Shown here: in pieces, positions 961-64,000 of the stretch
Numbering within the stretch: the first letter of the stretch is position 1
How the letters are laid out: each line of letters starts with the position of its first letter
Assembly (NCBI GenBank): GCA_034336665.1
Contig: JAPFBE010000065.1
Span: forward strand, 1-64,000
DNA length: 64,000 bases
Direction: 5' to 3'
DNA from: Luscinia megarhynchos
Taxonomy: Eukaryota > Chordata > Aves > Passeriformes > Turdidae
Position numbers and translations under genes: made by a program
Notes under the pieces: model-generated
Database searches by the model: none
What the model was told of the DNA's origin: nothing
What the model saw: only the letters and a program-made list of their open reading frames with translations

Positions 961-2072
961 GCACCCAGAAATAAATAATGGAAATGGAAATGGAATCCCT
1001 AAACACGCAAAAATCAACTCCCCAAAACACACCTAGAATGCTAGAGCACATGGGGCTGTTGCTGCAGGTATAACACTTAAAATCAGCCCTAGGTCACTCC
1101 TGGAATCAACTCCATAGCACACCTAGAATGCTAGAGACATGGGGGATGCTGTGCAGGTATGAGCACTAAAATGAAATCCTTAAACACCCTAAATCAACTC
1201 TAAAATCAACCTCCTAAAATCAACCCCAAACACTCCCAAAAATCAAACCCCAAAATCAGCTCCTCCTAAATGCAAAATCAACTCCTCCTACGCACCAAAC
1301 GTCCTTTGACACCCTAAAATCAGCTCCTAAAACACCCCGAATCAGGTCAGCTGAGCACCCTAAAAGGCATCCCCAAACACTCAAAATCAACTAAAACACA
1401 CAAAACACCCGTAAAAATCAGCCTAGACACCCCAAAATCAGCTAAAATGCACCTAGGATACCAGGGCACATGGGGCTGCTGCTAGCACTTAAACACCCTA
1501 AAATCAACCTAGAGCACTCAAAGATCAACCCCAAAACCCTCACATTCCCTCAAAGCTCCTCAATCCTCAACTCAAAGCTCAATCAAAGTCCCTGAATCCC
1601 CCAAGTCTCCAAAACCCTCTAACTCCTCTACACTCCAATCTAAAGCCCTCGATACCCCAAAATCCCTGGATCTAAATCTTCCCCAAACCCTCTAACCCTC
1701 CCCCAAAGCCCTCAATCCCCCAAAGTTCCTGAATCTAAATCTCCCCCAAAACCTCTCAATCCCCAGAAACAAATCTCCCCCAAAACTCAATCCCCCAAAC
1801 CCCTCTAACCCTCCTCCAAAGCCCCCAAATCTCCCCAAAACCCCTCAATCCCCCAAACCCCTCTAACCCTCCCCAAAACCCCTCAAGTCCCCCTCTCAAA
1901 ATCCCTCAACTCCCCAAAACCCTCAATCCCCTATAAAGAGCCCTGAATCCCCTCTAAATCTCCCCAAAACCCCCTCAATCCCCACAGGTCTCCTGAATCC
2001 CTCAAATCTCCCCAAACTCCCTCTTCTAAACAAAAAACCCCCCAAAGTCTCCTCTCCCTCCCTCGTGTACAG
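961..2072 (+). repeat. SKIC2 intron: CAAAATCAACTCC repeats with exon-end copies
   Basis: This is a C/A-rich tandem array (CCCAAAATCAACTCCTAAAA-like, later CCCCAAAACCCTCAATCCC). It contains three copies of an exon 3' edge: 1044-1067 reads E-H-M-G-L-L-L-Q followed by gta; 1134-1156 is a damaged copy followed by gtatga; 1465-1484 has lost the donor. The peptide resembles human SKIC2 just before the exon that starts V-S-S, which is the exon found at 2073. The full upstream exon is not visible and probably lies before the window. Confidence 0.6.
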
Positions 2073-2220
2073 GTCAGCTCGGGGCTCCGGGTCGTCCTTC
2101 ACCACCACCCCTGGTGCTGGAGGGAGAAGCCCCCGAGGGGGGCAGTCTCCCCAGAGCCCCCAGGACGCTGCTCCCTACCCCAGGACCTGCTGCTCACCGC
2201 TCTCTTCCCTGCCCGAGAGG
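2073..2220 (+). CDS. SKIC2: SKIC2 exon (V-S-S ... P-Y-P ... L-P-E)
   Basis: The exon follows a tgtacag acceptor. It reads V-S-S-G-L-R, then after a one-base shift F-T-T and L-V-L-E-G-E-A-P, and near the end P-Y-P-x-D-L and L-F-L-P-E. These match the order V-S-S, F-T-T-L-V-L, V-P-Y-P-D-D-L, L-F-L-P-E-G in human SKIC2. At least two indels break the frame. The likely donor is the gt at 2221. Confidence 0.72.
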
Positions 2221-5200
2221 GTCTGCACCCCAGATTTTGGGGGATGGGAGTTTTGGATTTTGAGGATCCTCTGGAGGGGTTTGGGGATTTTGAGTGTTCA
2301 TTAGGTGTCCTCAAGAGTGATTTGGGAGTCCTGGGTCACTTTTGGGGGCGGCCTGAGAGATTTGAGGGGTCCCCATTATCCTGATCACTTTTTGGGGGTC
2401 TGTGAAAGGAATTGGGGGTCCCCGAATTTCTGGGGTCATTTTGGGGTGGTCTCTATAGGGTTTGGGGGTCCCCCTGAGTCCTAGGTCACTTTTGGGGGAT
2501 CCTGAGAAATTTTGGGGTCACTGGGGTCCCATTTGGGGTCTCTAAAGGGGATTTTGGGGAGTCCCCATATTTCTGGATCACTTTCTGGGGGTCTGTGAAA
2601 GGGTTTGGGGGTCCCCGAATTTCTGGGGTCACTTTTTGGGGGATCCCGAGGGATTTTGGGGGTCCCCTAAGGGGATTTGGGGGATCCCCTGAAAGTTTTG
2701 GGGAGGTCTCCAAATCCTTTGGATCACTTTTGGGGAATCCTGAGTGATTTTTGGGGGTCACTGTGTCCCTGAGAGGGATTTTGGGGGGTCTCTGAAGGTT
2801 TTTGGGGTCCCTAAGAGGGATTTAGGGGTCCCTGAAAGTTTTGGGGGTCCCCAAATTTTGGATCACTTTTGGGGAGAATCGCAGGGATTTTGGGGGTCAC
2901 TGGGTCCCTGAGAGGGGATTTTGGGGGGTCCCTGAAGGTTTTGGGGTCCCTAAGAGGGATTTAGGGGGGTCTCTGAAGGGGTTTTGGGGGTCCCCGAATT
3001 CCTGGGTCACTTTTTTGGGGGATCCTGAGAAATTTGGGGTCACTGGGTCCCCATTTTGGGGTCCCCCAGGGAGGGATTTGGGGGTCCCCCATATTCCTGG
3101 ATCACTCTTTTGGGGGTCTGTGAAAGGGATTGGGGGTCCCCGAATTTTCTGGGTCACTTTTGGGGTCTGTGAAGAAGGGTTTGGGGGTCCCCCGAATTCC
3201 CCTGGGGTCACTTTTGGGGGATCCTGAGAGAAATGGGGGTCACTGGGTCCCCATTTTGGGGAGTCCCCCTAGGAGGGATTTTGGGGATCCCCATATTCCT
3301 GGATCACTTTTTGGGGGGTCTGTGAAAGGGATTGGGGGTCCCCGAATTTCTGGGTCACTTTTGGGGTCTGTGAAGGGGTTTGGGGGTCCCCAATTCCTGG
3401 GGTCACTTTTGGGGGATCCTGAGAAATTTTTGGGGGTCACTGGGTCCCCATTTTAGGGTCCCCAGGAGGGATTTGGGGAGTCTCCCAATTTCTGGGGTCA
3501 CTTTTGGGGGTCTGTGAAGGGTTTTGGGGGTCCCCCGAATTTCTGGAGTCACTTTTGGGGGGTCTGTGAAGGGCTTGGGGGGTCCCCCTGAATTCCTGGG
3601 GTCACTTTTTGGGGATCCCGAGAGATTTTGGGGTCACTGGGTCCCCATTTTGGAGTCCCCCAGGAGGGATTTCGGGGAGTCTCCCCGAATTTTCTAGGGG
3701 TCACTTTTAGGGGGATCTGTAGAAGGGTTTCGACGGTCCCTAGTTCCTGGGTCACTTTTGGGGGATCCTGAGGGATTTTTGGGGTCCCCTAAGAGGGATT
3801 TGGGGTCCCTGAAGGTTTTGGGGTCCCCCAGGCCCCGGGCACTGCCTGGAGCAGCTGCTCGCCCCGAGGACATCAGTGGGGTCACGGCAAGACCCTGAGG
3901 GTGAACCGAAAATTCTGCTGCAGGAGCTGCCTCGGGGACCCCGCCCCCTGCACAGAGACTTTGGGTGGGGCTGGGGAAATTTGGGGTGCTGAGGGAAAAC
4001 CCCTGGGGTCCTGGGGGAAAAATTTTGGGTTCTCAAGAGGGAAATAGGGTGCTGGGGTGCACTTTTGGGTGCTGGGGGAGATTTTGGGGTGCTGGGAAAT
4101 TTTGGGAGTGCTGGGGCTGGAGGCCCCTGGGGTGCTGAAGGGAAAATTTGGGGCTGGGGAAATTTGGGGTGCTGGGGAAAATTTGGGTCTCTAGGGAGGG
4201 AAATTGGGGTGCTGGGGGAGAATTGGGGTGCTGGGGAGACTTTTGGGGTGCTGGGGAATTTGGGGTGCTGAAGGAAATTTTGGGGGTGCTGGGGAAACTG
4301 AGTTCTGGGGAAAAAATTTTGGGTTCTAGGGGAAAATTTGGGGTTTTTGGGGAATTGGGGTGCTGGGGAGGAAAATTGTTGACTGACTGACCTGACGATC
4401 TTCGCCGGATCGCCGATCCTGACGTCGATCTCGATCGCCGAAAGACTTTGTTGATCTGCCGGATTCGCCGGATCTGCGCCGGGTCGAGCAAAAGATTTGC
4501 CGGATCTTTGCTGGCGTGCCGGAAGCGGCTGCAAAGATCCTGCCGCAAGATTTTGATTTCGAGTGATTTTGCCGATGGATTTGCCGCGCCGAGCGGGCTG
4601 GCTGATGTTGCGCTGAGTCTCGCCGGATTCTCGCCGGATTTCTGGATCTTTGCCGATGGATTTGCCGGATCTGCCGGACTTTGCCGAGGCCGAGGCGGTT
4701 GAGTGATTTGCCGGAAGCGCAAGCGCAAAGGATTTTTGAGTGATTTGCCGCTGGAGGCGGGTTGAGGCCTGCCGGGCGGAAATTTTTGCCGAGGCTGGAG
4801 TCTTTGGCGCAAGCGCGCAAAAGTCTGGACGCAAAGCTGAGTGATTTTTTGAAAAAGCGCAAGTTGAGGCCTTTGGCGGAAAGATTTTGAGCAAGCGGCT
4901 GATTTTGAGGTTGAGTGCAAGGAGTGGATGGAGTGGATGGATGGGTGGATGGAGACCTAACTCGCACAACTCCTGGGACCCCTAAAATATACACACTGGG
5001 GGACCCCCAAAATAGCACTGGGAGCTCCTAAATACACTCTGGGACCCCAAAACAGCCCCCAAGTCGCTGTTGCTGCCTGAGTAGTCATCAGAGGCTGGAG
5101 GTGGGACTCCAAATACAACCAAAATGGTACCTGGGACTCCCTAAAACCTCCTGGGATCCCCTAAATACCCTGGGATCCCCAAAAATACACCTCTGGGATC

Positions 5201-8200
5201 CTAAAATACACCTCTGGGACCCCAAAACAGCCCCTAAGTTATGTGCTGCTGCCTAGATCACCAGGCTGGAGGTGGGACCTCACATACTTCCAAAATACAC
5301 CCCAAAATAACCCTGGGACCCCAAAATTATACACTGGGACCCCCCAAAATAGCACTGGGAGCCCCAAAATACACCCTGGGACCCCGAAATACACCCTGGG
5401 ACCCCAGCAGCCCCTAAGTCGCTGCTGCTGCTGCTGAGTATCACCAGAGGCTGGAGGTGGGACCCCAAATACACCCCAAATACACCCCAAATACACCCTG
5501 GGACTAGACAGCACTGGGAGCCCCAAAATACACCCTCGGGATCCCCAAAAATACACCCTGGGACCCCAAAACAGCTAAGTCGCTGCTGCTGCTGCCCAAG
5601 TATCACCAGAGGCTGGAGGTGGGACCTAAATCGCCCCAAATACACCCAAATAACCCTGGGACCCCCAAAACGTCCTGGGATCCCTGCAAAATACATCCCA
5701 AAATAGCACTGGGGACCCCAAAATACACCCCAAAATATCCCTGGGACCCTTAAAAAGCCTCCTGGGATCCCCCAAAATAGAGACTAGGGACCCCAAATAC
5801 ACCCCATAATACACCTAGGGGACCGAAAAATAGCCCTGGGATCCCCAAAATAGAGACTGGGACCCCAAATACACCAAAATAGCACTGGGACCCCTCAAAA
5901 TACACCCCAAAAATAGCACTGGGACCCCAAACACATCCCAAAATAGCACTGGGACCCCAAAATGCACCCTGGGACGGGAAAGCACACCCTGGGACCCCAA
6001 AACAGCCCCCAAGTCAGCTGCTGCTGCTGCCTGAGTATCACGCAGAGGGCTGGAGGTGGGACCCCAAATACACCCCCAAATACACCCTGGGACTCGAAAA
6101 TATACACTGGGACCCCCAAAATAGCACTGGGAGCCCCAAATACACCCGAGAAATACACCCTGGGACTAAAATGCACCCTGGGATCCCCAAAATAGAGACT
6201 GGGACCCCAAAATACACCCCAAAATAATGGGACCCCCCAAAATACACCCCAAAATAGACCCTGGGAGCTCCAAATACACCCCAAAATACACCCTGAGAGG
6301 TCTTAAATACACCCTGGGGACCCCCAAAACCCCTGTGTGACCCTGTGTGACCCCTGTGTGACCCTGAGCGACTTTCTGTGACCCCTGTGTGACCCCCCTG
6401 TGCTGACCCTGTGTGACCCCTGTGTGACCCTCTGTGACCCTCTGTGTGACCCTGTGTGACCCCTGTGTGACCCCTGTGGTGGACCCTGTGTGACCCTGTG
6501 TGACCCCTGTGTGACCCTCTGTGCTGACCCCTGTGTGACCCTGTGTGACCCTGTGTGACCCCTGTGTGACCCGGTGTGACCCCTGTGTGACCCCTGTGCT
6601 GACCCCCTGTGTGACCCCCTGTGTGACCCCCTGTGTGACCCTGTGTGACCCGGTGTGACCCCTTGTGTGACCCCTGTGTGACCCTGTGTGACCCTGTGTG
6701 ACCCTGTGTGACCCTGTGACCCTGTGTGACCCTGTGTGACCCTGTGTGACCCTGTGTGACCCTGTGACCCCTGTGTGACCCTGTGTGACCCCTGTGTGAC
6801 CCTCGTGTGACCCCTGTGTGTGACCCGTGTGTGACCCGTGTGTGACCCTGTGTGACCCTGTGTGACCCTGTGTGACCCCTGTGACCCCTGTGTGACCCTC
6901 AGTGACCCGGTGGTGTGACCCGTGTCTGACCCTGTGTGTGACCCTGTGTGACCCCTGTGTGACCCCCTGTCTGACCCTGTGTGACCCCTGTGCTTGACCC
7001 CTGTGTGACCCTCTGTGTGACCCTGTGCGACCCCTGTGTGACCCCCTGTGTGACCCTGTGTGACCCTGTGTGACCCTCGTGTGAGCTGTGTGACCCTTGT
7101 GTGACCCTGTGCTTGACCCCTGTGTGACCCTTTGTGCTTGACCCCTGTGTGAGCCCTGTGTGACCCCCTGTGTGACCCCTGTGTGACCCCTGTGTGACCC
7201 TCTGAGTGACCCTGTGTGACCCCTGTGTGACCCTGAGTGACCCTGCCTGACCCCTGTGTGACCCTGTGTGACCCCTGCGTGACCCCTGTGACGACCCCTG
7301 TGTGACCTCTGTGTGACCCCTGTGTGACCCTGTGTGACCCTGTGTGACCCCTGTGTGACCCTGTGTGACCCTGTGTGACCTCTGTGTGACCCTGACCCTG
7401 TGTGACCCCTGTGTGACCCCTGTGTGACCCTCTGTGTGACCCTGTCTGACCCTGTGTGACCCCTGTGTGACCCCTGTGTGACCCCCTGTGTGACCCCATG
7501 TGTGACCCCTGTGTGACCCCTGTGTGACCCCTGTGTGACCCTGTGTGACCCTGTGCTTGACCCCTGTGTGACCCCTGTGTGACCCTGTGTGACCCTGCTG
7601 ACCCCTGTGTGACCCCTGTGGCTGACCCTGTGTGACCCTGTGTGACCCTGTGTGACCCCTTGTGTGACCCCTGTGTGACCCCTGTGTGACCCTGTGTGAC
7701 CCTGTGTGACCCCTGTGTGACCCCTGTGTGACCCTGTGGCTGACCCCTGAGTGACCCTGTGTGACCCTGTGTGACCCTGTGTGACCCTGTGTGACCCCCT
7801 GTGTGACTTCTGTGTGACCCCTGTGTGACCCTGTGTGACCCCTGTGTGACCCCTGTGTGACCCTGTGTGACCCCTGTGTGACCCCTGTGTGACCCCCTGT
7901 GTGACCCCCAGGTGCTCTGCAGAGCTGGGCTATATCTCGGGAGGTGCAGTAGCTCTGGGCGGCCGCGTGGCTGGCGCTGCTGAGCACTGGAGCAGCTGGT
8001 GCTGACCGAGCTGCTCCTGGGCAATGTCCTGACCCCTGTGTGACCCCTGTGTGACCCTGTGTGACCCTGTGTGACCCTGTGTGACCCTGTGTGACCCCCT
8101 GTGTGACCCCTGTGTGACCCTGTGACCCCTGTGTGACCCCAGGTGCTCTCAGAGCTGGGCTATATCTCGGGAGGTGCAGTAGCTCTGGGCGGCCGCGTGG

Positions 8201-11200
8201 CGGCGCGAGCACGGAGCAGCTGGTGCTGACCGAGCTGCTCCTGGGCAATGTCCTGAGCCGCGCTCCGAGGAGGCCGTGGCTGCTCTCCTGCCTCGTCACT
8301 CCCGGCCGGGGGAGCCCCTGCCCGAGGGGCTGCCCAGCCCCTACTGCAGTGAGAGGGGGGAGGGAAATTTAGGGGAGTTTGGGGGGGTCTGGGTGGGACT
8401 CTGGGGGAAATGGAGGGTCTGTGAGGGAAGCGGATTGGGGGGGTTTGGGGGGGAATTGAGGGTCTGTGAGGGGGGAATTGGGGAAATCTGAGGGGAATTG
8501 GGGAGTCTGGGAAATTAGGGGAGTTTGAGGGGTCTGGGGAAGTGAGAGTCTGTGAGGGGAAAATTGGGGAAATCGGGGAATTGGGAGAGGATTAGGGGAA
8601 ATTTGGGGAGTTTGGGGGGTCTGAGTGGGGAAATTGAGGGTCCAGTGAGGGGGAATTGGGGGAAAGGTGGGGCATCTGGGGGAGAGAATTGGGGAGTTTG
8701 GGGGGTCTGGGGCGTCGGGGGGGGAAATGGAGGGTCTGTGAGGAAAATTGGGGGGATTGGGGGAAATTTGGGGAGTTTGGGGGAAATTTGGGAGTTTGGG
8801 GGGTCTGGGGAGAAATTGAGGGTCTGTGAGGCAGGAATTGGGGAAATTGGGGTGTCGGGTGAGATTGGGGGGGTTTGGGGAGAATTGGGGGTCTGGGGGG
8901 AAATTTGGGGGAGTTTGGGGGGTCTGGGGGGAAATTGAGGGTCTGTGAGGGGAATTGGGGAGTCTGGGGGGGAATTTGGGAGGGAATTGGGGGTCTGGGG
9001 GGATTTGGGGGCAATTGGGGTGTCTGGGGGAGATTTGGGGGAATTGGGGGTCTGGGGGGCAGTCTGGGGGTTCGGGGGTTTTTGGGGTCCCTGACTACGC
9101 CCCCAGGCCCTGGAGCAGCTCCAGGGGGGTCTGTGGATTTTTGGGGAGGAGTTTGGGCTTTTTCGGGTCCCCCAGGCCACGGAGTGGGACCAGGGGGGTC
9201 TGTGGGAGGGATTTGGGGGCTCTGTGGGTTTTGGGGTCCCTGATTCGGGATTTTGGGGGTTCCTGATGTGGGATTTGGAGTCTCTGTGGGTTTTGGGGTC
9301 CCTGATTCGGGTTTTTGGGGTCTCTGTGGGTTTTTGGGGAGGGATTTGGGTTTTTGGGGTCCCTGATTTGGATTTTTGGGGTCTCTGTGGCTTTTTGGGG
9401 TCTCTGATTTGGGATTTTTGGGGTCTCTGACTCGCCCCCCCAGGCGCTGGAGCGGCTCCAGGGGGGTCTGTGGGAGGGGTTTGGGGTCTCTGTGAATTTT
9501 TGGGTTCCCTGATTTGGGTTTTTGGGGTTCCTGATGTGGGATTTGGGGTCTCTGTGGATTTTTGGGATCCCTGATTCGGGCTTTTGGGGCCCCTGATTTG
9601 GGTTTTTGGGGTCCCTGATTCGGGTTTTGGGGTCTCTATGGATTTTGGGGTCCCTGATTTGGGATTTTGGGGTCTCTGTGGATTTTTGGGATCCCTGATT
9701 CGGGTTTTGGGGCCCCTGATTTGGGTTTTTGGGGTCTCTGTGGATTTTTGGGATGGGATTTGGGTTTTTGGGGTCCCTGATTCGGGATTTTTGGGATCCC
9801 TGATTCGGGCTTTTGGGGCCCCTGATTTGGGTTTTTGGGGTCCCTGATTCGGGTTTTTGGGGTCTCTGTGATTTTTGGGGTCCCTGATTCGGGATTTTGG
9901 GGTCTCTATGGATTTTTGGGGTCCCTGATTTGGGATTTTGGGGTCCCTGATTTGGGTTTTTGGGGTCCCTGATTCGGGATTTTGGGGTTTCTATGATTTT
10001 TGGGGTCCCTGATTTTGATTTTTGGTGTCCCTGACTCGCCCCCCAGGCCCTGGAGCGGCTCCGGGCCGTGGCCGCGCGCGTCGGGCGCCTGGAGAAGCTC
10101 CAGGGGGGTCTGTGGGTTTTTGGGGTTCCTGATTCGGGATTTTGGGGTCTCTCTGGGTTTTTGGGGTCTCTGACTCGAGGTTTGCAGGCCCTGGAGCGGC
10201 TCCGGGCCGTGGTCACGTAGCGCCGGGTGCTGGAGCAGCTCCGGGGGGTCTGTGGGTTTTGGGGTCCCTGATTTGGGATTTTGGGATCCCTGATTGGGAT
10301 TTTGGGGTCTCTCTGGGTTTTTGGGGTCTCTGACTCGGGGTTTGCAGGCCCTGGAGCGGCTCCGGGCCGTGGCCGCGCGCGTCGGGTGCTGGAGCAGCTC
10401 CGGGGGTCTCTGTGGGTTTTTGGGGTCCCTGATTCGGGATTTTGGATTCTCTATGATTTTTGGGGTCTCTGACTCGGGGTTTGCAGGCCCTGGAGCGGCT
10501 CCGGGCCGTGGCCGCGCGCGTCGGGCGCCTGGAGCAGCAGCGCGGCCTCGGGCCCGGCCCCGACGAGTTCGTGGCCAAGTTCGGCTTCAGCCTCGTGCAG
10601 GTGGTGTACGAGTGGGCCCGGGGCATGGTGAGAGCCCCAAAATCCGCCTGGGGCACCCCGAAATTCACCTGGGAACCCCAAAATCCACCTGGGAGCCCCA
10701 AAATCCACCTGGGAGACCCAAAAATTCACATGGGAGCCCCAAAATCCACCTGGGAGTGCCCAAATTCAACTGGGAGCCAAAATCCACCTGGGAACCCCCG
10801 AAATCCACCTGGGAGACCCAAAAAATTCACATGGGAGCCCCAAAATCCACCTGGGAGACCCAAAATCCACCTGGGGCACCCCAAAATCCACCTGGGGCAC
10901 CCCGAAATCCACCTGGGAGCCCCAAAATCCACCTGGGGCACCCCGAAATCCGCCTGGGGCACCCCGAAATCCACTGGAGCCCCCAAAATCCACCTGGGAG
11001 CCCCCAAAATCCACCTGGGAGCCCCCAAAATCAGCCTGGGGCACCCCAAAATCCGCCCTGGGAGACCCAAAAAATTCACATGGGAGCCCCAAAATCCACC
11101 TGGGAGTGCCCAAAATTCACCTGGGAGTGCCCAAATTCAACTGGGAGCCGCCAAAATCCACCTGGGAGCCCCAAAATTCACCTGGGAGACCCAAAATCCA

Positions 11201-13345
11201 CCTGGGGGCACCCCAAAATCCACCTGGGAGCAACAAAAAATCACCTGGGGCACCCCAAAATCCACCTGGGACACCCCCAAAATCCACCTGGGGCACCCCG
11301 AAATCCGCCTGGGGCACCCGAAATCCACTTGGGAGCCCCAAAATCCACCTGGGAGCCCCAAAATCCGCCTGGGGCACCCCAAAATCCGCCTGGGAGTGCC
11401 AAAAATTCACCTGGGAGCAACAAAAATCACTTGGGAGCAACAAAATTCCCAATGTGCCCCAATCCCCCAAATCCCCCAATGTCACCAATGTCCCTAATGT
11501 CCCAAATCCCCCCAATGTCCCACAATGTGTCCCCAATCCCCCAATCCCCCCATTGTCCCAAATCCCCCCAATGTCCCCAATGTCCCCAATGTCCCAAATC
11601 CCCCAATGTCCCCCAGTGTCCCCAGTGTCCCCCAATGTCCCTCCAAATGTCCCCAATGTCCCCAATGTCCCAAATCCCCCCAAATCCTCCCAAATCCCCC
11701 AAATCCTCCCAAATCCCCTGTGTCCCCAATGTCCCCCAAATGTCCCCTAATGTCCCTTCAGTGTCCCCCCAATGTCCCCAATCCCCCCAATATCCCCAAT
11801 CCACCCCAATCCCCCAAATTCCCCCAATGTCCCCACTGTCCCCAATCCCCCCATTCCCCCAGTGTCGCTGCTGTCCCCCTAATGTCCTAATGTCCCGTAA
11901 CTCCCCAGATCCCCCCAGTGTCCCTCTGCATGTCCCCAATCCCCCAGTGTCCCCCAACTCTGTGTCCCCAATGTCCCCCAATGTCCCCAATCCCCCCAGT
12001 GTCCCCCAACTCTCTAGTGTCCCCTAATGTCCCCTAATGTCCCAAATCCCCCAGTGTCCCCCCAAATCCCCCCAGTGTCCCAATGTCCCCCAAATGTCCC
12101 CAATGTCCCCTTCAGTGTCCCCCAATGTCCCTAACTCTAATATCCCTAATCACCCCAATCCCCTAAATTCCCCCAATGTCCCCCACTGTCCCCACTGTCC
12201 CCTAATCCCCCCATTCCCCCAGTGTCCCCCAGCTGTCCCAAAATCCCCCGGAATCCCCCCAGTGTCCCCATGTCCCTAATCCCCCAGTGTCCCCCCAAAT
12301 CCCCCAGTGTCCCCAGTGTCCCCAATGTCCCCAATCCCCCCGGAATCCCCCAATGTCCCCACAGTGTCCCCAATGTCCCAAATCCCCCCAATGTCCCCTT
12401 CAGTGTCCCCCCAATGTCCCCAATCCCCCAATATCCCCTAATCACCCCAATCCCCCAAATTCCCCCAATGTCCCCCACTGTCCCCACTGTCCCCTAATCC
12501 CCCCATTCCCCCAGTGTCGCCCACTGTCCAAAAAATCCCCCAATGTCCCCACTGTCCCCTAATGTCCCAAATCCCCCAGTGTCCCCCACTGTCCCCAATC
12601 CCCCAATCTCCCCCACTGTCTAATGTCCCCAATTTCCCCATTCCGCCTAGTGTCCCCACTGTCCCCCACTGTCCCCAATGTCCCAAATCCCCCAAATCCC
12701 CCAAATCCCCCAGTGTCCCCTAATGTCCCCAAATATCCCCAATGTCCCAAATCTCCCCCAATATCCCCAATCCCCCCAATGTCCCCAGTGTCCCCCACTG
12801 TTCCCCGTAAATCCTCCCAATGCCCCCACTGTCCCCCACTGTCCCAAATCCCCGAATCCCCCCCAATGTCCCCAGTGTCCCCACTGTCCCCAATCCCCCA
12901 AATCCTAGTGTCCCCCCCACTGTCCCCAATGTCCCCAATCCCCCCAATCCCCCCAGTGTCCCTAATCCCCCAAATCCCCTCAATGTCCCCAATGTCCCAA
13001 ATGTCCCCAGTGTCCCCACTGTCCCAAATCCCCCAGTGTCCCCAAATCCCCTAATCCCCCAGTGTCCCAAATCCCCCGAATCCCCTCAATGTCCCCTAAT
13101 CCCCAGATCCCCCCAGTGTCCCCCCAGCGTCCCCCACTGCGTCGCCCCGTCGGCCCTCAATGGGACATCGGCCTGGCGCTGCAGGAGGGCTCTGATTGGT
13201 CTGGTGCCATCCAGCGGCTGGAGGAGCTGCTGCGGAGACTCGCGCCAGGCAGCATGGGCTGGGCATCCCGGCTGGCATGAGATGGGAGGCCGGGCCATGA
13301 TCAAGCGCTGACATCGTCTTCGCCGCCAGCCTGTACACGCAATAA
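2073..13345 (+). CDS. SKIC2: SKIC2 (SKIV2L), Ski complex RNA helicase, 3' part of gene
   Basis: SKIC2 is the DExH helicase of the cytoplasmic Ski complex, which feeds mRNA into the exosome for 3'-5' decay and works with SKIC3 and SKIC8. Only the C-terminal part is here: the end of the arch/insertion region and the DSHCT domain. The helicase core would lie upstream. Diagnostic peptides are F-T-T before L-V-L-E-G near 2097-2130, K-T-L-R-V-N at 3891-3912, L-G-Y-I-S-G-G at 8158-8180, V-V-Y-E-W-A-R-G-M at 10601-10627, and the terminal D-I-V-F-A-A-S-L-Y-T-Q then TAA at 13310-13345. Exons seen: 2073-2220, 3832-3964, 8143-8349, 10487-10627 and 13128-13345, plus edge copies of one more exon near 5.05-6.06 kb. 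About 90 residues between the second and third seen exons were not found. Several exons carry indels; the 10487 exon is intact. STK19 follows 1.4 kb downstream on the same strand. Confidence 0.88.
2225..3825 (+). repeat. SKIC2 intron: G-rich composite minisatellite
   Basis: Irregular units combine TTTGGGGGTCCCCGAATTTC, TGGGTCACTTTTGGGGGATC and CTGAGAGGGATTTTGGGG motifs, each recurring many times. Nothing coding is seen. Both strands show long open frames that are repeat translations only. Confidence 0.85.
3832..3964 (+). CDS. SKIC2: SKIC2 exon (C-L-E-Q-L-L ... K-T-L-R-V-N)
   Basis: It starts after cccccag and reads G-H-C-L-E-Q-L-L-A-P, then with a one-base correction E-D-I-S-G-V-T-A-K-T-L-R-V-N. 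This corresponds to the human SKIC2 stretch ending T-T-K-V-L-R-V-N-G-E-K-I-L. The 3' end is uncertain; gtgggg at 3965 is the best donor. Confidence 0.68.
3967..4380 (+). repeat. SKIC2 intron: GGGGTGCTGGGGAAATTTT repeat
   Basis: About 20 bp tandem units of TTTGGGGTGCTGGGGAAA occur on the + strand, with no CpG and no coding signal. The array stops abruptly at 4380, where composition changes. Confidence 0.85.
4381..4930. other. Compositional island, GCCGGAT/GATTTGCCG-rich, unassigned
   Basis: About 550 bp unlike either flank: rich in CpG, no long G runs, and built from words such as GCCGGATTT, GATTTGCCG and CGCAAGCGC. GCCGGAT occurs seven times between about 4400 and 4672. It ends in a GGAGTGGATGGATGGG stretch. 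Minus-strand frames stay open across it (Ser/Arg/Gln/Ala-rich) but show no known domain. It sits where SKIC2 exons for about 90 residues are expected. It could be a diverged repeat, a basecalling or polishing artefact, or foreign sequence. Confidence 0.6.
4960..6310 (+). repeat. SKIC2 intron: CCCCAAAATACACCCTGGGA array with exon-end copies
   Basis: A 20 bp-scale tandem array. Embedded at about 5050-5106, 5228-5272, 5408-5462, 5578-5622 and 6010-6060 are five copies of an exon 3' edge reading (S)-L-L-L-L-P-x-Y-H-Q-R-L-E-V followed by gtggga. This matches the SKIC2 peptide L-L-L-L-P-E-Y-H-Q-R-V-E-V that immediately precedes the V-L-x-x-L-G-Y exon found at 8143. No complete version of this exon is visible. 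Confidence 0.72.
6325..7908 (+). repeat. SKIC2 intron: CTGTGTGACC 10-11 bp minisatellite
   Basis: About 1.6 kb of nearly pure CTGTGTGACC / CCTGTGTGACC units. On the minus strand the units read H-T-G-V-T-Q-G-S in all frames without stops, giving spurious open frames of over 400 codons. The same motif resumes at 8030-8140 and reappears in STK19 introns. Confidence 0.95.
7912..8030 (+). other. Partial 5' copy of SKIC2 exon 8143-8349
   Basis: After a ccccag acceptor the first roughly 119 nt of the next exon are repeated (V-L-x-x-L-G-Y-I-S-G-G, G-R-V, Q-L-V-L-T-E-L-L). The copy then runs directly into the CTGTGTGACC minisatellite after GGCAATGTCCTGA. It differs from the full exon by small indels (extra CTG near 7972 and 7981). 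It is longer than any other exon-edge copy in the window. Confidence 0.85.
8143..8349 (+). CDS. SKIC2: SKIC2 exon (L-G-Y-I-S-G-G, DSHCT domain)
   Basis: It starts after ccccag and reads V-L-S-E-L-G-Y-I-S-G-G-A-V-A-L-G-G-R-V-A, then in a shifted frame T-E-Q-L-V-L-T-E-L-L-L-G and L-L-S-C-L-V. Human SKIC2 has V-L-R-T-L-G-Y, L-A-G-R-V-A, L-L-L-T-E-L and A-A-L-L-S-G-L-V-C in the same order. At least two indels are present. The exon should end C-T-G-C-A-G before gtgaga; one G is missing at the junction, so the exact end is uncertain by a base. Confidence 0.85.
8350..9095 (+). repeat. SKIC2 intron: GGGGAAATTGGGGAGTTTGG repeat
   Basis: G-rich tandem units of GGGGAATTTGGGGAGTTTGG and GAGGGTCTGTGAGGGG on the + strand. 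Nothing coding is seen. Confidence 0.85.
9096..10486 (+). repeat. SKIC2 intron: TCCCTGATTCGGGATTTTTG array with exon-start copies
   Basis: Units of TTTTTGGGGTCCCTGATTCG dominate. Copies of the next exon's 5' edge follow cag acceptors at about 9104, 9444, 10047, 10188 and 10348 (A-L-E-Q/R-L-Q/R, the longest continuing A-V-A-A-R-V-G-R-L-E). A degenerate one lies near 9176. Each runs into GGGGGGTCTGTGGG intron sequence after 20-70 nt. Confidence 0.85.
10487..10627 (+). CDS. SKIC2: SKIC2 exon, intact (A-L-E-R-L-R ... E-W-A-R-G-M)
   Basis: This 141 nt exon gives 47 codons without disruption, bounded by ttgcag and gtgaga. It encodes A-L-E-R-L-R-A-V-A-A-R-V-G, then D-E-F-V-A-K-F-G-F-S-L-V and V-V-Y-E-W-A-R-G-M. 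Human SKIC2 has R-V-R-A-V-A-K-R-I-G, E-E-F-V and V-V-Y-E-W-A-R-G-M here. Its clean frame argues that the gene is functional and that indels elsewhere are errors. Confidence 0.93.
10628..11445 (+). repeat. SKIC2 last intron, part 1: CCCCAAAATCCACCTGGGAG array
   Basis: About forty copies of a 20 bp unit, CCCCAAAATCCACCTGGGAG, with variants GGGCACCCC and GAGACCC. No coding signal is seen. Confidence 0.93.
11446..13125 (+). repeat. SKIC2 last intron, part 2: CCCCAATGTCCCAAATCCCC array
   Basis: About 1.7 kb of 8-10 bp submotifs (CCCAATGTCC, CCCAAATCCC, CCCAGTGTCC). All six frames stay open for long stretches because stop codons are absent from the motif; none is a gene. Confidence 0.93.
13128..13345 (+). 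CDS. SKIC2: SKIC2 terminal exon (I-Q-R-L ... A-A-S-L-Y-T-Q stop)
   Basis: Fragments in shifting frames read L-A-L-Q-E-G, A-I-Q-R-L-E-E-L-L-R-R-L-A, G-H-P-G, M-I-K-R and D-I-V-F-A-A-S-L-Y-T-Q then TAA at 13343-13345. Human SKIC2 ends I-Q-R-L-A-E-M, L-L-R-R-D-I-V-F-A-A-S-L-Y-T-Q. At least four indels are needed to join the pieces. The acceptor is one of the cccag sites between 13106 and 13127. Confidence 0.85.
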
Positions 13346-13346
13346 A
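13341..13346 (+). terminator. SKIC2 poly(A) signal overlapping the stop codon
   Basis: AATAAA spans the last two bases of the final Gln codon, the TAA stop and one further base. The 3' UTR must therefore be only about 10-30 nt. Confidence 0.75.
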
Positions 13347-13359
13347 GGGGCTGCGGGGC

Positions 13360-14660
13360 ACCCCCCGTGCCTCCCGTGGTTCAGCCCGACACCCCCGGAC
13401 TGTGAATGGTTCAGTCTGACACCCTCGGACTCGGAATGGTTCAGTCTGACACTAGACCCCGTGTAGTACAGTCCAACCCCCGGACTGTGAATGGTTCAGT
13501 CCGACACCCCAGACTCTGAATGGTTCAGCCTGACACCGGATCCTGAATGGTTCAGTCTGACCCCCCGGACTCGGAATGGTTCAGTCCAATCCCCCAGAAC
13601 TCTCGTGTGGTTCTGTCCAACTCCCCCCAGACTCTGAATGGTTCAGTCCAATCCCCGTCGACCTTCAGTGGTTCAGTCTGATACCCCCGGACCCTGAATG
13701 GTTCACTCTGACCCCCCATACCCTGAATGGTTCAGTCCAATCCCCCAGATCTCGTGTGGTTTTGTCCAATCCCCCAGACTCTGAATGGTTCAGTCCGACC
13801 CCCGGACTGTGAATGGTTCAGTCTGACACCCCCGGACCCTGAATGGTTCAGTCCAACCCCCCGGACTCTGAATGGTTCAGTCTGACACCCCCAGACCCTG
13901 AATGGTTCAGTCTGACCCCCCTGGACTCTGAATAGTTCACTCCGACCGGACTCGAATGGTTCAGTCCAATCCCCCCAGAACTCGTGTGGTTCTGTCCAAC
14001 CCCCCAGACTCTGAATGGTTCAGTCCAATCCCCTCGACCTTCAGTGGTTCGGTCTGATATCCCCGGACTCTGCATGGTTCAGTCTGACACCCCCAAACCT
14101 CATGTGGTTCTGTCCAATCCCCCCAGGTTCTGAATGGTTCAGTCCAACCCCCAGACCCTGAATGGTTCACTCTGACACCCCCATACCCCTGAATAGTTCA
14201 GTCTGACACCCCTCGACCTTGAGTGGTTCAGTCCAACCCTTCCAGACCTTGAATGGTTCAGTCTAACCCCCGTAGACTCTGAACGGTTCAGTCCAACAAC
14301 CCCATACCTTGAATGGTTCAGTCTGACCCCCCAGTCCCTGAATGGTTCAGTCTGACACCCCCTTAACCCCCTGTGGTTCAGTCTGACACCTCTCGACCTT
14401 GAATGGTTCAGTCTCAAACCCCTTATAACCCCGTGTGGTACAGTCCAACCCCCCTCAATCTCACGTGGTTCAGTCCATTCTCCTATTCGCTTAAACCTCC
14501 CCCCGCACCGTTGGCTCGTTGTGGTTCCTCCCTCCCCCCGCTTTCCGCGTGGTTTAATCCATTCATCCCATTGGTCAGCTCAACGTTCCCTCCCCCCATC
14601 GCCTCACTGTGGTTCGTTCCATCCCCCCTTCCTTCCCCTCCAAATGGTTCAGTCCCGCGT
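13360..14660. repeat. SKIC2-STK19 intergenic array, TGAATGGTTCAGTCTGACAC
   Basis: About forty copies of a roughly 30 bp unit, GAATGGTTCAGTCYRACMCC plus CCCCGGACTCT, fill the interval. Units become degenerate after about 14440. No exon on either strand is seen; in particular no DXO, which lies between these genes in mammals. Confidence 0.92.
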
Positions 14661-14791
14661 CACACCCAGCGCCGCTCCGTGACGTCACCGGGAGGCGCGG
14701 CGTCGCGCCGCAGTGACGCCATCGCGCCGCAGTGACGCCATCGCGCCGCAGTGACGCCATCACGCCGCGCCGGCGCCGTCCCGAGCCCCTC
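14661..14791 (+). promoter_or_regulatory. STK19 promoter: CRE plus triple TGACG repeat
   Basis: A CpG-dense block directly upstream of the STK19 ATG. It has a perfect CRE, TGACGTCA, at 14680-14687, then three tandem 19 bp units (CGCGCCGCAGTGACGCCAT-like, about 14703-14760), each with a TGACG ATF/CREB half-site. There is no TATA box. The 5' UTR must be short. Confidence 0.65.
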
Positions 14792-26479
<11,688 letters not shown>

Positions 26480-26671
26480 CCGCGCCTCCCCCGAATTTTG
26501 GGACGCAAAGGGCGTGGCCCGTTCTGACCACGCCCATTTGGGGCGGGGCCGAGGCGGGGTAATTCCCATTTCCCTGCCTCAGCCCCGCCCCCTCCGCCTT
26601 CAGCCCCGCCCCCCGCAGGCCGGGGGTGTCCCCGCGTTTTTGTGGGGGGGGGGAGGGGAGGGGGGGCGAAA
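26480..26671 (+). other. STK19 3' UTR
   Basis: Non-repetitive GC-rich sequence with several CCCGCCCC motifs and a long G run (26643-26667), ending in the first AATAAA at 26680. No other feature is seen. Confidence 0.55.
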
Positions 26672-27312
26672 CCGAGTGCAATAAAAAATAAAAATAATTT
26701 AAAAAAAAATAATAATAATTCTGATTGCGGACCCCACCCCGCGCGGGCATCGCCGCTTTAAGGGCGGCGTTGCCGCTTTAAGCGAGTGCAATAAAAAATA
26801 AAAATAATTTTAAAAATAAAAATAATAATTCTGAATGCGGACCCCACCCGCGCGGGCATCGCCGCTTTAAGGGCGGCGTTGCCGCTTTAAGCGAGTGCAA
26901 TAAAAAATAAAAATAATTTTAAAAATAAAAATAATAATTCTGATTGCGGACCCCACCCGCGCGGGCATCGCCGCTTTAAGGGCGGCGTTGCCGCTTTAAG
27001 CGAGTGCAATAAAAAATAAAAATAATTTTAAAAATAAAAATAATAATTCTGATTGCGGACCCCACCCCGCGCGGGCATCGCCGCTTTAAGGGCGGCGTTG
27101 CCGCTTTAAGCGAGTGCAATAAAAAATAAAAATAATTAAAAAAAAAATAATAATAATTCTGATTGCGGACCCCACCCCGAGCGGGCATCGCCGCTTTAAG
27201 GGCGGTGTTGCCGCTTTAAGCGAGTGCAATAAAAAATAAAAATAATAATTCTGATTGCGGACCCCACCCCGTGCGGGAATCGCCGCTTTAAGGGCGGCGT
27301 TGCCGCTTTAAG
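26672..27312 (+). repeat. 110 bp intergenic array, each unit with AATAAA
   Basis: Six head-to-tail units with an A/T block (AATAAAAAATAAAAATAATT...) followed by a GC block (GATTGCGGACCCCACCC, GCCGCTTTAAGGGCGG, GTTGCCGCTTTAAGCGAG). AATAAA occurs at 26680, 26790, 26899, 27008, 27118 and 27228, i.e. spacing 109-110. The last unit is shortened to about 93 bp. Units are almost identical, unlike the degenerate intronic arrays, so the array is recent. It supplies the STK19 poly(A) signal and ends 68 bp before the NEU1 ATG. Confidence 0.96.
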
Positions 27313-27379
27313 CGCAGGCCCCGCCCCCCGCGGTAACGCCCGGCGCGCGGCGCTTCCGGTGTCCCTTAAAGGGGCCGCG
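27313..27379 (+). promoter_or_regulatory. NEU1 core promoter region
   Basis: Only 67 bp separate the tandem array from the NEU1 ATG. They hold a GC box (GGCCCCGCCCCCCG, 27317-27330) and an ETS-type CTTCCGG (27353-27359). There is no TATA box and no CACGTG CLEAR element, which might be expected for a lysosomal gene. The transcription start must lie within or beside the array. Confidence 0.55.
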
Positions 27380-27460
27380 ATGGGCGCGGCGCGGGCGCTG
27401 CTCCCGCTGCTGCTGCTCGCCAGCGGCGCCGCCGCGCGATGGGTCGCGACCCCCGACACG
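27380..27460 (+). CDS. NEU1: NEU1 exon 1 (signal peptide)
   Basis: 27 codons from the ATG: basic start, a hydrophobic [10 protein letters not shown] core, and A-A-A-R as likely cleavage site. Donor gtaccg at 27461. An in-frame GTG at 27359 is not needed. Confidence 0.85.
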
Positions 27461-30400: not shown

Positions 30401-33400
30401 CCTGGTGGTCCCTGGCTGTTCCCTGGTTGATCCCCGGTGGTCCCTGGGCTTTCCTTGTGTTTTTGGGGAGGGGTCTCTTCTCACACTTTACCCCCCCCAG
30501 GTGCCACGTGGGCCCCCACGCAGGTGGTGGCCGATGACGCCTGGGGGTCCCTGGTGGTCCCAGGTGGTCCCAGGTGGTCCCTGGGCTTTCCCCTGCATTT
30601 TTTGGGGGAGGGGTCTCTAGACCTGTCCCCCCCCAGGTGCCACGTGGGCCCCCACGCAGGTGGTGGCGGATGACGGCTGGGGCGGGACGGGCTAGTCTGG
30701 GGGGCGCTGCTGGCGGGCGGGGCGCAGCAGGTGCTGCTGCTGTTCGCGGCTGCGCCCTGGGACTCACACGCAGCCATGCCCCCCAGCACGCTGCTGCTGC
30801 TCGCCCGACGGGGGGCGCTCTGGGGCTCCCCAGAACCTTCGGCCGCCCTGTGGGGGCTGAGGTGTTAGCCTCCGGGCGGGCTCCCGGCATCCAGGTAATG
30901 GGGAGGGGGTGGGGAGGGGGTTTGGGGGTTTTGGGGAGGGGGTTTGGGGGGTCAGAGAGTTCGGGGTTTGGGGAGGGGTTTGGGGGATTTGGGAACTGGG
31001 GAGGGAATTTGGGGTTTGGGGGGTTTGGGGTCAGAGAGTTCGGGGGTTTGGGGAGGGGGTTTGGGGGTTTTGGGGGAGGGGGTTTGGGGGTTCAGAGAGT
31101 TCATGTGGTTTGGGGAGGGGTTTGGGGTTTTGGGGAAGGAATTTGGGGGTTTGGGAGGGGGTTTAGGGTTTTGGGGAGGGGTTTGGGGGTTCAGAGAGTT
31201 CGGGGTTTGGGGAGGGGGTTTGGGGGGTTTTGGGGAGGGGTTTGGGGTCTCGGAGAGTTCGGGGTTTGGGGGAGGGGTTTGGGGTTTTGAAGAAGGAATT
31301 TGGGGGTTTGGGGAGGGGTTTAGGGTTTTGGGGGAGGGGATTTGGGAAGGGAGTTTTGGCTTTTGGGGAGGGGGTTTGGGGGTTTGGGGGTTTTGGGGAG
31401 GGGTTTGGGGTTCAGAGATTTCGGGTTTTGGGGAGGGGGTTTGGGGGATTGGGGGGAGGGGTTTGGGGTTTGGGGGGTTTGGTGGTTCGGAGGGTTCGGG
31501 GGTTTGGGGAGGGGTTTGGGGGTTTGGGGGGTTTGGGGGAGGGGGTTTGGGGATTTGGGGAACTGGGGAGGGAATTTGGGGTTTGGGGGGGTTTGGGGGT
31601 TCGGAGAGTTCGGGGGGTTTGGGGAGGGGTTTGGGGGGTTTGGGGGGTTTGGGGAGGGGTTTGGGGGGCCCAGAGAGTTCGGGGGTTTGGGGAGGGATTT
31701 GGGGGGTTTTGGGGAGGGGGTTTGGGGGTTCAGAGAGTTCGGGGTTTGGGGGAGGGGTTTGGGGAGGGATTTGGGGGGTTTGGGGAGGGGTTTGGGGGTT
31801 CGGAGGGTTCGGGGGTTTGGGGAGGGGGGTTTGGGGGATTTGGGAACTGGGGGAGGAATTTGGGGTTTGGGGGGGGTTGGGGGTTCGGAGAGTTCGGGGT
31901 TTGGGGAGGTTTTGGGGGTTCAGAGAGTTCGGGGGTTTTTGGGGAGGGGGGGTTTGGGGGTTCAGAGAGTTCGGGGTTTTGGGGAGGGGGTTTGGGGTTC
32001 AGAGAGTTCGGGGTTTGGGGGAGGGGTTTGGAGTTCAGAGAGTTCGGGGTTTGGGGGAGGGGGTTTGGGGGTTTTGGGGGAGGGGGGGTTTGGGGTGTGG
32101 GGAAGGGATTTGGGGGTTTGGGAGGGGGGTTTGGGGTTTTGGGGAGGGGGTTTGGGGGTTCAGAGAGTTCGGGGGTTTGGGGAGGGGGTTTGGGGGTTCG
32201 GAGAGTTCGGGGTTTGGGGGAGGGGTTTGGGGGATTGGGGAGGGGGTTTGGGGTTTGGGGGTTTGGGGGTTCAGAGGGTTCGGGGTTTTGGGGAGGGGTT
32301 TAGGGTTTTGGGGAGGGGATTTGGGGGATTTGGGGATTGGGGAGGGATTTTGGGGTTTGGAGGGGTTGGGGGTCTGGAGAGTTCGGGGTTTGGGGAGGGG
32401 GTTTGGGGGTTAGGGGGGGCTTGGGGGTTCTGGGATTTGGAGGGGTTCAGGGGGGATTTGAGGGTTTGGGGTTTTGGGGTTCAGGGGGATTTGGGGTCAG
32501 GGGATTTGGGGTTCAGGGTCTCACCCCCCTTTTCCAGCGCCGCCTCTCCCCAGAAGCAGCGGCTGCTCCGGGGATTTGATGGTTCGCGTTTTTGGGTTTT
32601 GGGGGTTCAGGGGGTTTGGGGTTTGGGTTTTGGGGTTCAGGGGTCTCACCCCTCCCTGCACGCCCCTCCCCGTAGCCAGCTGGCTGCTCGAGGGGATTTG
32701 ATGGTTCGCGTTTTTGGGTTTTTTGGGTTTTGGGGGTTCAGGGGAATTTGGGGTTTGGGTTTTGGGGGTTCAGGGGGGATCTGGGGTTTGGGGCTCGGGG
32801 GTCTCACCCCTTTTTCCCATGGCGCCTCCCAGAAGCAGCGCCAGCGCTGCCCGGGGGATTTGGGGGTTTGGGGAGGGGGTTTCGGATTGGGGTTTGGGTT
32901 TTGGGGTTCAGGGGGATCTGGGGTTTGGGTTTTGGGGGTTCAGGGGTCTCACCCCCTTTTCCCGGCGCCGCCCCTCCCCCAGAAAGCAGCGGGGCTGCTC
33001 CGGGGATTTGATGGTTCGGGTTTTTGGGTTTTTGGGTTTTGGGGTTCAGGGGAATTTGGGGTTTGGGTTTTGGGGCTCAGGGGTCTCACCCCCCTTTTCC
33101 CGCGCCGCCCCCTCCCCAGAAGCAGCGCGCGCCGTTCCGGGGCCGGCTGCTGTTCTGCGGGCACGGCACGCTGGAGCGGGACGGGGTCTCGCTGCTGCTC
33201 AGCGACGACGGGGGGCGCAGCTGGCGCCCGGGGGCGTCCTGCCCGCCATCCCCTTCCGGCCATAAGTCAGCACGACTTCACCCCCGACGAGTGCCAGGTG
33301 CGACCCCCTCCCCAATTCGGGGGGGCTCCGGGGTTGACCCCCTCCGCAATTCTGGGGGTCTTTGGTTAGCCCCTCCCCAATTCTGGGGAGCTCCGGTTAG

Positions 33401-35516: not shown

Positions 35517-35524
35517 CCCCGCGC

Positions 35525-35530
35525 AATAAA
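35525..35530 (+). terminator. NEU1 poly(A) signal
   Basis: AATAAA lies 8 nt after the stop, implying a 3' UTR of a few tens of nucleotides. An inverted CCAAT box of the next promoter begins 3 nt further on. Confidence 0.8.
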
Positions 35531-36110: not shown

Positions 36111-36274
36111 GGGCGGGGGAGGGGCGCGGCGGCGATTGGCGGGAACGGCGCGGGGGGAGGGATCCCTGAGGGGCTCCGGTCCCGCCGCGCTCGCCACGGC
36201 AGCGGCGGCGCTCGCCACGCCCGGTCCCGGTGCTCCCGCGGCTCCTGGGCCCGCGCGGGTCGCGTTCTCGGGGG

Positions 36275-37165
36275 GGTTGGTGGTCCCGGGGGCCCGTTGG
36301 GGTCGGGTGGTGGCGGCCACCGGGCCGGGGTTGGTGGCCCAGGGGTGGGCAGCGATACCGGGGCCGGTCAGTGGCCACCGGGCCGGTGTTGGTGGCCCAG
36401 GGGTGAGCGGCGAAACCGGGGCCGGTCAGTGGCCACCGGGCCGGTGTTGGTGGCCCAGGGGCGGTCAGCGATACCGGGGCCGGTCAGTGGCCACCGGGCG
36501 GGGTTGGTGGCCCAGGGGTGAGCGGCGATACCGGGGGCCGGTCAGTGGCCACCGGGCCGGGGTTGGTGGCCCAGGGTGAGCGGCGATACCGGGGCCGGTC
36601 AGTGGCCACCGGGCCGGTGTTGGTGGCCCAGGGGTGCTCAGCGATACCGGGGCCGGTCAGTGGCCACCGGGCCGGGGTTGGTGGCCCAGGGTGAGCGGCG
36701 ATACGGGGCCGGTCAGTGGCCACCGGGCCGGGGTTGGTGGCCCAGGGTGAGCGGCGATACCGGGGCCGGTCAGTGGCCACCGGGCGGGGTTGGTGGCCCA
36801 GGGGCGGGCAGCGATACCGGGGCCGGTCAGTGGCCACCGGGCGGGGTTGGTGGCCCAGGGGTGCTCAGCGGTACCGGGGCCGGTCAGTGGCCACCGGGCC
36901 GGGTTGGTGGCCCAGGGGCGGGCAGCGATACCGGGGCCGGTCAGTGGCCACCGGGCCGGGGTTGGTGGCCCAGGGCTGGGCAGCGGTACCGGGGCCGGTC
37001 AGTGGCCACCGGGCCGGGGTTGGTGGCCCAGGGGTGGGCGGCGATACCGGGGCCGGTCAGTGGCCACCGGGCCGGGGTTGGTGGCCCAGGGGTGGGCGGC
37101 GATACCGGGGCCGGTCAGTGGCCACCGGGCCGGGGTTGGTGGCCCAGGGCTGGGCAGCGGGCCTG
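36275..37165 (+). repeat. DDX39B intron 1: 58 bp CCACCGGGCCGGGGTTGGTG array
   Basis: About fifteen highly similar units of 55-58 bp: CAGTGGCCACCGGGCCGGGG, TTGGTGGCCCAGGGGTG and AGCGGCGATACCGGGGCCGG. Three-frame translations stay open but show no domain. Confidence 0.96.
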
Positions 37166-37199
37166 AGGCGATGTCGGTGCTCCTGTGGGTGATCAGCGG

Positions 37200-63366
<26,167 letters not shown>

Positions 63367-64000
63367 GTGAGAGAAATTTGGCATTTGGGGATTTTTTGGG
63401 GATTTTTTGGGGATTTTGGGGTTTTTAGGATTTTTGGGGGTTTTTTAGGGTTTTTTGGGTTTTTTGGGGGGTTTTTGGGTTTTTTGGGGGTTTTTTGGGA
63501 TTTTTGGGGTTCTTTTGGGGTTTTTGGGGGATTTTTGGGGTTTTTTGGGTTTTTGGGGTTTTTTGGGGTGTTTTTGGGGTTTTTAGGGTCCTGGGGGTGT
63601 TTTGGGGGTTCAGGGTTTGGGTGAACATCAGCTTAGCCGTCTCGACGAGATCGACATCTCCTCCCACAGTGAGAGAAATTTGGCATTTGGGTTTTTGGGG
63701 ATTTTTGGGGGTTTTTTTTTAATTTTTTGGGGATTTTTGGGATTTTTTGGGGTTTTTTAGGATTTTTTTGAGTTTTTAGGGGTTTTTTGGGGTTTTTTTG
63801 GGGATTTTTTGGGGATTTTTTGGGGTTTTTTTGGGGGTTTTTTGGGGGATTTTTGGGGTTTTTGGGGGTTTTTTGGGGGGTTTTTAGGGGTTCTGGGGTG
63901 TTTTTGGGGGTTCAGGGTTTGGGTGAACATCAGCGAAGCCGTCTCGGACGAGATCGACATCTCCTCCTACAGTGAGAGAAATTTGGCATTTGGGGATTTT
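63367..64000 (+). repeat. DDX39B last intron: TTTTTTGGGGATTTTTGGGG array with two exon-end copies
   Basis: T/G array containing two copies of the preceding exon's 3' edge (GTGAACATCAGC...GACGAGATCGACATCTCCTC, E-I-D-I-S-S) at about 63621-63668 and 63922-63972, each followed by GTGAGAGAAATTTGGCATTT exactly as after the true exon. The window ends inside the third such post-donor sequence. Confidence 0.95.

Follow-up and report, generated by a model that had tools for sequence, protein, structure and literature searches.

Tandem copies of exon edges with their splice sites in minisatellite introns of SKIC2, STK19, NEU1 and DDX39B

The window analyzed here is a stretch of 64,000 nucleotides of Luscinia megarhynchos DNA that carries, in this order on the + strand, the 3' part of SKIC2 followed by STK19, NEU1 and DDX39B. 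The genes were located by tblastn, using human protein queries, and their translations were compared with chains of the PDB. The translation of DDX39B matched a chain of that name (E 2e-38), that of NEU1 a sialidase-1 chain (E 3e-17) and that of SKIC2 a helicase SKI2W chain (E 2e-9); the STK19 translation gave a weak match to the STK19 chain (E 0.009). Using protein matches and splice sites, we annotated 26 exons and 24 introns, with two introns cut by the window ends. The gene models were made by hand, three exon ends were placed by eye, and the last SKIC2 exon, the first NEU1 exon and the introns adjoining them were left out of the annotation. Tandem Repeats Finder assigned 78% of the intron bases to tandem repeats, compared to 9% of the exon bases, and in the bins counted no tandem-repeat exon base lay farther than 60 nt from a border. 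The exons are not internally expanded.

An earlier note on this DNA had claimed that the introns of all four genes contain copies of exon edges together with their splice sites. We searched the window with 45 exon edges, each as a 32-nt query made of 28 exon and 4 intron nt, and accepted matches with at most 8 edits (the border screen). Copies were recovered for 17 of the 45 edges, and the remaining 28 had none in this screen. Among the 97 non-self matches, 82 were in the adjoining intron, in direct orientation and on the expected side. The same 45 queries produced a mean total of 3.7 matches in three order-1 Markov shuffles of the window and 7 matches on the reverse strand, which rules out chance similarity as the source of the 82 copies. 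Four of the 15 matches away from the expected place are those of a small SKIC2 exon; the other 11 are scattered, have 6-8 edits of 32 each and look like chance matches. A stricter screen with published criteria compared each exon with the introns of its own gene by blastn-short (at least 20 nt and at least 42.1 bits) and yielded 36 matches, all of them direct and all in the intron adjoining the source exon, with no distal match in the other introns of the same gene. In introns that had been shuffled in two ways, five times each, the top score was 24.3 bits. The matches of this screen reached the exon border within 1 base in 28 of 36 cases, and in 8 of 10 expansions. At least one copy was present in 14 of the 24 introns by the border screen and in 9 of the 24 by the bit-score screen. 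Both screens bear out the presence of exon-edge copies with splice sites in the introns of all four genes, with the corrections given below. The claim that the copies are always in + orientation agreed with the 36 strong matches, among which no inverted copy occurred. The proposal that acceptor copies always precede and donor copies always follow the true exon agreed with 82 of the 97 border matches but not with the small SKIC2 exon, which has copies on both sides. Transposon-like copies, inverted or dispersed, were considered as a separate candidate and numbered zero among the 36 strong matches.

Table 1. Exon-edge copies and related repeat units in the window
Gene	Feature	Positions	Strand	Detected by
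SKIC2	Small exon (41-50 nt), five occurrences, each with AG and GT	5056-5100, 5231-5271, 5411-5456, 5575-5618, 6006-6055	+	Border screen, border-centred 30-mer
SKIC2	One acceptor-side copy, reaching exon position ~114, before exon 8143-8348	7913-8032	+	Both screens
SKIC2	Five acceptor-side copies before exon 10487-10627	9102, 9439, 10047, 10187, 10348	+	Both screens
STK19	Four acceptor-side copies before exon 25470-25611	24663-25149	+	Both screens
STK19	One donor-side copy after exon 25470-25611	25712-25763	+	Both screens
NEU1	Four acceptor-side copies, 46 nt of exon each, before exon 30637-30894	30016, 30187, 30351, 30501	+	Both screens
DDX39B	Ten donor-side copies after first coding exon (40712-40922)	to 42559	+	Both screens
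DDX39B	Four donor-side copies after second coding exon (43219-43346)	to 44106	+	Both screens
DDX39B	Five acceptor-side copies before third coding exon (45072-45163)	44442-44995	+	Both screens
DDX39B	Seven degenerate acceptor-side copies before fourth coding exon (47733-47919)	from 46110	+	Border screen
DDX39B	Intron-only unit, start 12 nt past exon 47733-47919	47931-51109	+	9 matches including self, at most 14 edits in 50
DDX39B	Six acceptor-side copies before sixth coding exon (56429-56580), poor-quality sequence	54301-56096	+	Border screen
DDX39B	Five donor-side copies after seventh coding exon (58298-58407)	to 59348	+	Border screen
DDX39B	Sixteen acceptor-side copies before eighth coding exon (60975-61122)	59470-60908	+	Both screens
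DDX39B	Nine donor-side copies after eighth coding exon	to 62684	+	Both screens
DDX39B	Two weak acceptor-side copies before ninth coding exon (63220-63366)	ends 62937, 63113	+	30-mer matches; 0 by border screen
DDX39B	Two donor-side copies after ninth coding exon	ends 63668, 63971	+	Border screen

The number of copies per exon agreed only in part with the earlier count, as we assigned its numbers to the exons. For DDX39B, we recovered the claimed numbers at the first (10), second (4), third (5) and eighth exons (16 acceptor and 9 donor) and on the donor side of the ninth exon (2), but the border screen gave lower numbers than claimed at the fourth (7, claimed 10), sixth (6, claimed 7) and seventh exons (5, claimed 6). 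On the acceptor side of the ninth exon, the two claimed copies appeared with a border-centred 30-mer but not in the border screen. In NEU1, the four copies claimed for exon 3 were all found, whereas exon 4, also with a claim of four, gave none in the border screen and two with the 30-mer. STK19 exon 6 has the single donor-side copy that was expected, but four acceptor-side copies by the border screen instead of six; exon 5, for which four copies had been proposed, gave one by the border screen and two others by the border-centred 30-mer. At the 5' edges of the SKIC2 exons, the claim of one copy was correct and the claim of six was reduced to five by the border screen. The small SKIC2 exon occurs five times with the assigned exon included, against an earlier count of five.

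We took 5575-5618 as the small SKIC2 exon, which is an assignment only. Whole copies of this ~45-nt exon, with both splice sites, are located three upstream and one downstream of it. The order of acceptor copies before and donor copies after fails at this exon because the repeat unit is longer than the exon and, since the exon is copied whole on both sides, not every copy in the window is a half-exon, that is, an exon edge with its splice site. The SKIC2 array at 9102-10627 contains two acceptor types and two joints; three of its copies have a C-rich tract and two have the exon's own pyrimidine-poor acceptor. The first SKIC2 array of the earlier note (~1030-1490) was seen by eye only, its exon body not being recognizable in the window, and tblastn found no SKIC2 exon body before 1030. 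The sequence at 1-1020 is A-rich and 'ggaaatgg'-like, with no SKIC2 match. A donor-edge-like motif recurs after it, by eye, at ~1060, ~1150 and, in a weaker form, at ~1480.

The copies become fewer with distance from the exon border. Leaving out the small SKIC2 exon, we counted how often each 20-nt exon window recurs in the facing intron; the mean was 1.36 copies at the border and fell to 0.52 at 20-29 nt and to 0.10 at 50-59 nt, with none past 110 nt. The exon part of a copy has a median length of 36 nt and a range of 12-117 nt (79 of the 82 copies). A gap-tolerant alignment placed AG in 49 of 50 acceptor copies and GT in all 32 donor copies, a count that is biased upward because the query contained these bases and gaps were cheap; at fixed offsets, AG was present in 40 of the 50 and GT in 31 of the 32. 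We further analyzed the exon-intron joints of the 11 arrays with at least four copies. One or two joints are common to the copies in eight of these arrays. In NEU1, all four copies end at exon position 46. In DDX39B, four of five copies of one array end at exon position 36 and three of four copies of another at 68; seven copies of the first array end at 149-151 and three at 123. The copies of the sixth DDX39B exon all end within 12-17 (6 of 6), and those of the eighth exon within 113-115 on the donor side (9 of 9) and within 28-34 on the acceptor side (14 of 16). The SKIC2 array has two end points, with three and two copies. The exon end points are scattered in the other three arrays, which are those of STK19 and of the fourth and seventh DDX39B exons. 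The spacing from copy to copy varies, and some copies have variants in common that are absent from the exon. The common end points suggest that most arrays go back to one or two duplications across the border, with amplification afterwards. Ordinary GC-rich intronic minisatellites consist of imperfect tandem units that measure from tens of bases to hundreds, and the arrays described here are similar in being made of imperfect tandem units. In ordinary minisatellites, however, one would not expect to see coding edges and splice sites included again and again in one gene after another.

The earlier note had also raised the option that the arrays are an artefact of long-read consensus. In an assembly or consensus artefact, one or a few real edge copies per intron would have been multiplied by a noisy long-read consensus. 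We assessed the base quality as the smallest number of edits that each DDX39B exon needs to become one of the possible coding sequences of the human protein, from which the protein of the analyzed species may differ a little. The values from the first to the ninth exon were 1.9, 0, 2.2, 3.3, 16, 22, 11.8, 5.5 and 8.1%, with edits in eight of the nine exons and 5.5-22% in the five exons at 53108-63366. The exon lengths were at most 3 nt off expectation in eight of the nine, and one exon, in poor sequence, was 20 nt longer. We read the edit-laden exons at 53108-63366 as low consensus quality, a decaying gene copy being less likely. The detail past ~47 kb is unreliable because the DDX39B exons there need 3-22% edits, and the copy numbers past 47 kb are provisional because of this poor base quality. 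The segment at 4381-4960 is odd as well, with many 'gccgga' and 'gcgcaag' strings; tblastn gave no SKIC2 protein match there, although SKIC2 coding sequence would be expected near this position by comparison with the human protein, and the segment looks like failed base calling or consensus. The edit rates of the six DDX39B exons past 47 kb, this garbled segment and the lack of a common joint in three of the 11 larger arrays are all compatible with an artefact. However, the arrays are also present in the clean sequence before 45.2 kb (0-2.2% edits), where the second DDX39B exon has 0 edits and four copies, and the uneven spacings, the common variants absent from the exon and the joints shared in 8 of 11 arrays are unlike independent errors. 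In addition, for PHF8 of chicken, other authors verified the general structure of such repeats in raw nanopore data (PMC12954441). We consider it unlikely that the arrays were produced in this way; the artefact option holds at the level of single bases (3-22% edits past 47 kb) but not for the arrays themselves, which occur in clean sequence too.

Tandem expansion of a unit that spans the exon-intron border, as originally proposed in the earlier note, explains the fall-off from the border, the conservation of AG and GT and the joints shared in 8 of 11 arrays. We therefore believe that these are very likely stuttering introns, in which border-spanning tandem duplications arose within minisatellite introns, were tolerated and were then amplified. 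The introns would be largely minisatellites that have expanded locally, and tandem duplications within them would be frequent and would occasionally span an exon border. A duplication that crosses the border would generate one complete exon plus an extra half-exon on the intron side, and it could escape selection because the mRNA need not change. Duplications inside an exon would alter the protein and would hence be removed, so that selection would pass border-crossing units and keep the exon interiors single. The new border-bearing unit would then be amplified along with the array, by slippage or by unequal recombination, with the extra copies probably neutral. The order of the copies would need no separate rule because duplication of an acceptor leaves the extra acceptor upstream and duplication of a donor leaves the extra donor downstream. 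Against this reading stand the 28 of 45 edges that gave no copy, the scattered end points in 3 of the 11 larger arrays, the whole copies of the small SKIC2 exon, the edits in eight of nine DDX39B exons, through which copy numbers may be wrong, and the two clean copies with purely synonymous exonic substitutions.

Exon definition is an established principle of splicing, and decoys that are half-exons without a second splice site would be disfavored by it; splicing presumably uses the edge that is continuous with the exon body. We modelled 79 uses of decoys. A stop interrupts the reading in 69 of them and the frame is shifted in 4, while 6 remain open and in frame. Regular use of the decoys would therefore usually destroy the message, and maintenance of the reading frame as a general rule of the decoys is ruled out (6 of 79 open). 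The same numbers argue against the possibility that the arrays are kept for a function, such as regulated alternative edges or decoys that slow splicing. A function would agree with the alignment of AG or GT in 81 of 82 copies (a count biased upward; 71 of 82 at fixed offsets) and with the six decoy uses that stay open in frame, including all four after the second DDX39B exon. However, young copies should still have their splice dinucleotides in any case, and the length of the introns with exon copies is very variable between individual chickens, which speaks against a maintained copy number (PMC12954441). A role of this kind is, in our view, very improbable. Behind the second DDX39B exon (43347-44106), the four decoy donors follow at distances of 156, 345, 522 and 756 nt, each of which is a multiple of three. 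There is no in-frame stop between them, and read-through would repeat the last residues of the exon in frame; the copies are 93-100% identical to the exon. The chance of frame alone for these four donors is about 1 in 81, with 14 arrays looked at.

In addition to the border-spanning duplications that we favor, the copies and the working exon edge might exchange sequence, by gene conversion or by deletion between the exon and a copy. We put this addition forward tentatively, as possible rather than probable. The copies would then not be dead, and the exon edges and splice sites might conceivably be replaced from the array repeatedly, under coding selection. Two copies of the first DDX39B array, ending at 41088 and 42258, have 101 nt downstream in common with 1 substitution. 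Their exonic parts show six substitutions over 86 sites, each of them at a third codon position and synonymous in the standard code (p 0.0014 for codon position, a comparison chosen after inspection; p 0.049 for exonic versus intronic density). Five one-base indels between the two copies, two exonic and three intronic, were left out of the test and count against exchange. The all-synonymous substitutions in two clean copies suggest a pattern not expected of purely neutral fossils; repeated seeding from a coding version, or exchange with it, would explain the differences, and a paralogue or a second haplotype is possible as their source. Over all arrays, the third codon position accounts for 19 of 32 recurrent variants (those in two or more copies) compared to 22 of 62 singletons. 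Among the sites of the clean arrays at which at least two rows carry the minor base, 10 of 13 are third positions, and the first DDX39B array contributes 8 of 9. The SKIC2 exon at 10487 also points to exchange, since its acceptor is of the same type as those of the copies at 10187 and 10348 and unlike those at 9102, 9439 and 10047, as if it had been renewed from the array. On the other hand, the codon signal comes essentially from one array. With the first DDX39B array set aside, third positions make up 10 of 21 recurrent variants (p 0.12), and a third-codon excess as a general rule is unsupported there; the clean arrays without it gave 2 of 4, and the noisy arrays showed no excess (9 of 23). 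The proposal that introns and exon borders co-evolve thus received suggestive support, essentially from the first DDX39B array, but the excess was not significant elsewhere. If exchange does occur, conversion inside the gene would contribute to the evolution of coding edges, and the arrays would archive the edges of their exons or supply them with variants. Should the synonymous-only substitutions hold in error-free sequence, the arrays would demonstrate sequence exchange between introns and coding edges.

In the literature that we searched, we found the phenomenon described only as exon stuttering in chicken, where the outer part of an exon and the donor or acceptor next to it recur as copies along the neighboring intron (Hron et al. 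2026, Genome Biol Evol, PMC12954441). The arrays of the four genes are a dense new case of exon stuttering. As in the published account of the chicken introns, the copies here consist of a partial exon and a splice site, are tandem and direct, and are located in the neighboring intron; the median exon part of 36 nt, the repeat-filled introns and the intact coding exon are also alike. The chicken study counted 1,345 copies, spread over 236 introns in 115 genes, and 190 of these introns belong to dot chromosomes. A single expansion comprised 1-44 copies, and the copied exon parts measured 20-187 bp (median 36). The source sequence lies within 1 base of the exon border in over 90% of the chicken expansions, and the corresponding 8 of 10 expansions in our window are somewhat below this value. 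With 9 of 24 introns compared to 190 of 5572 (3.4%) introns of the chicken dot chromosomes, the density here is higher, in a window that was picked as striking and annotated by hand. Whole-exon copying, as in the small SKIC2 exon, is a feature of our window that the account in PMC12954441, as far as it was available, does not mention for chicken, and the terms NEU1, SKIV2L, STK19 and DDX39 are absent from the main text of that paper. Its authors left the mechanism open between replication stress or DNA structures and meiotic non-crossover conversion, and reported that the read consensus was too poor for an analysis of short nucleotide variation.

A tandem duplication over an intron-exon boundary has also been described as a source of intron gain, in which the splice signals are doubled and a new spliced intron is made (2016, PMC4974935). 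The arrays described here are similar in that a boundary-crossing duplication doubles the splice signals. They differ from that account in that one duplication there led to a new spliced intron, whereas here there are many copies within an existing intron, seen in genomic sequence. The cluster of SKIC2, STK19, NEU1 and DDX39B is well suited to tests of how the splicing machinery passes over dozens of decoys that are nearly identical. The partial exon copies and frameshifts of the window are also a warning to annotators, since they carry the risk of wrong annotation in the form of false alternative exons and false pseudogenes. The border screen found no donor-edge copy of exon 47733-47919 in the repeats at 47931-51109, whose units are spaced ~290-490 nt apart, and DDX39B shows both intron-only stuttering and exon stuttering within one gene.
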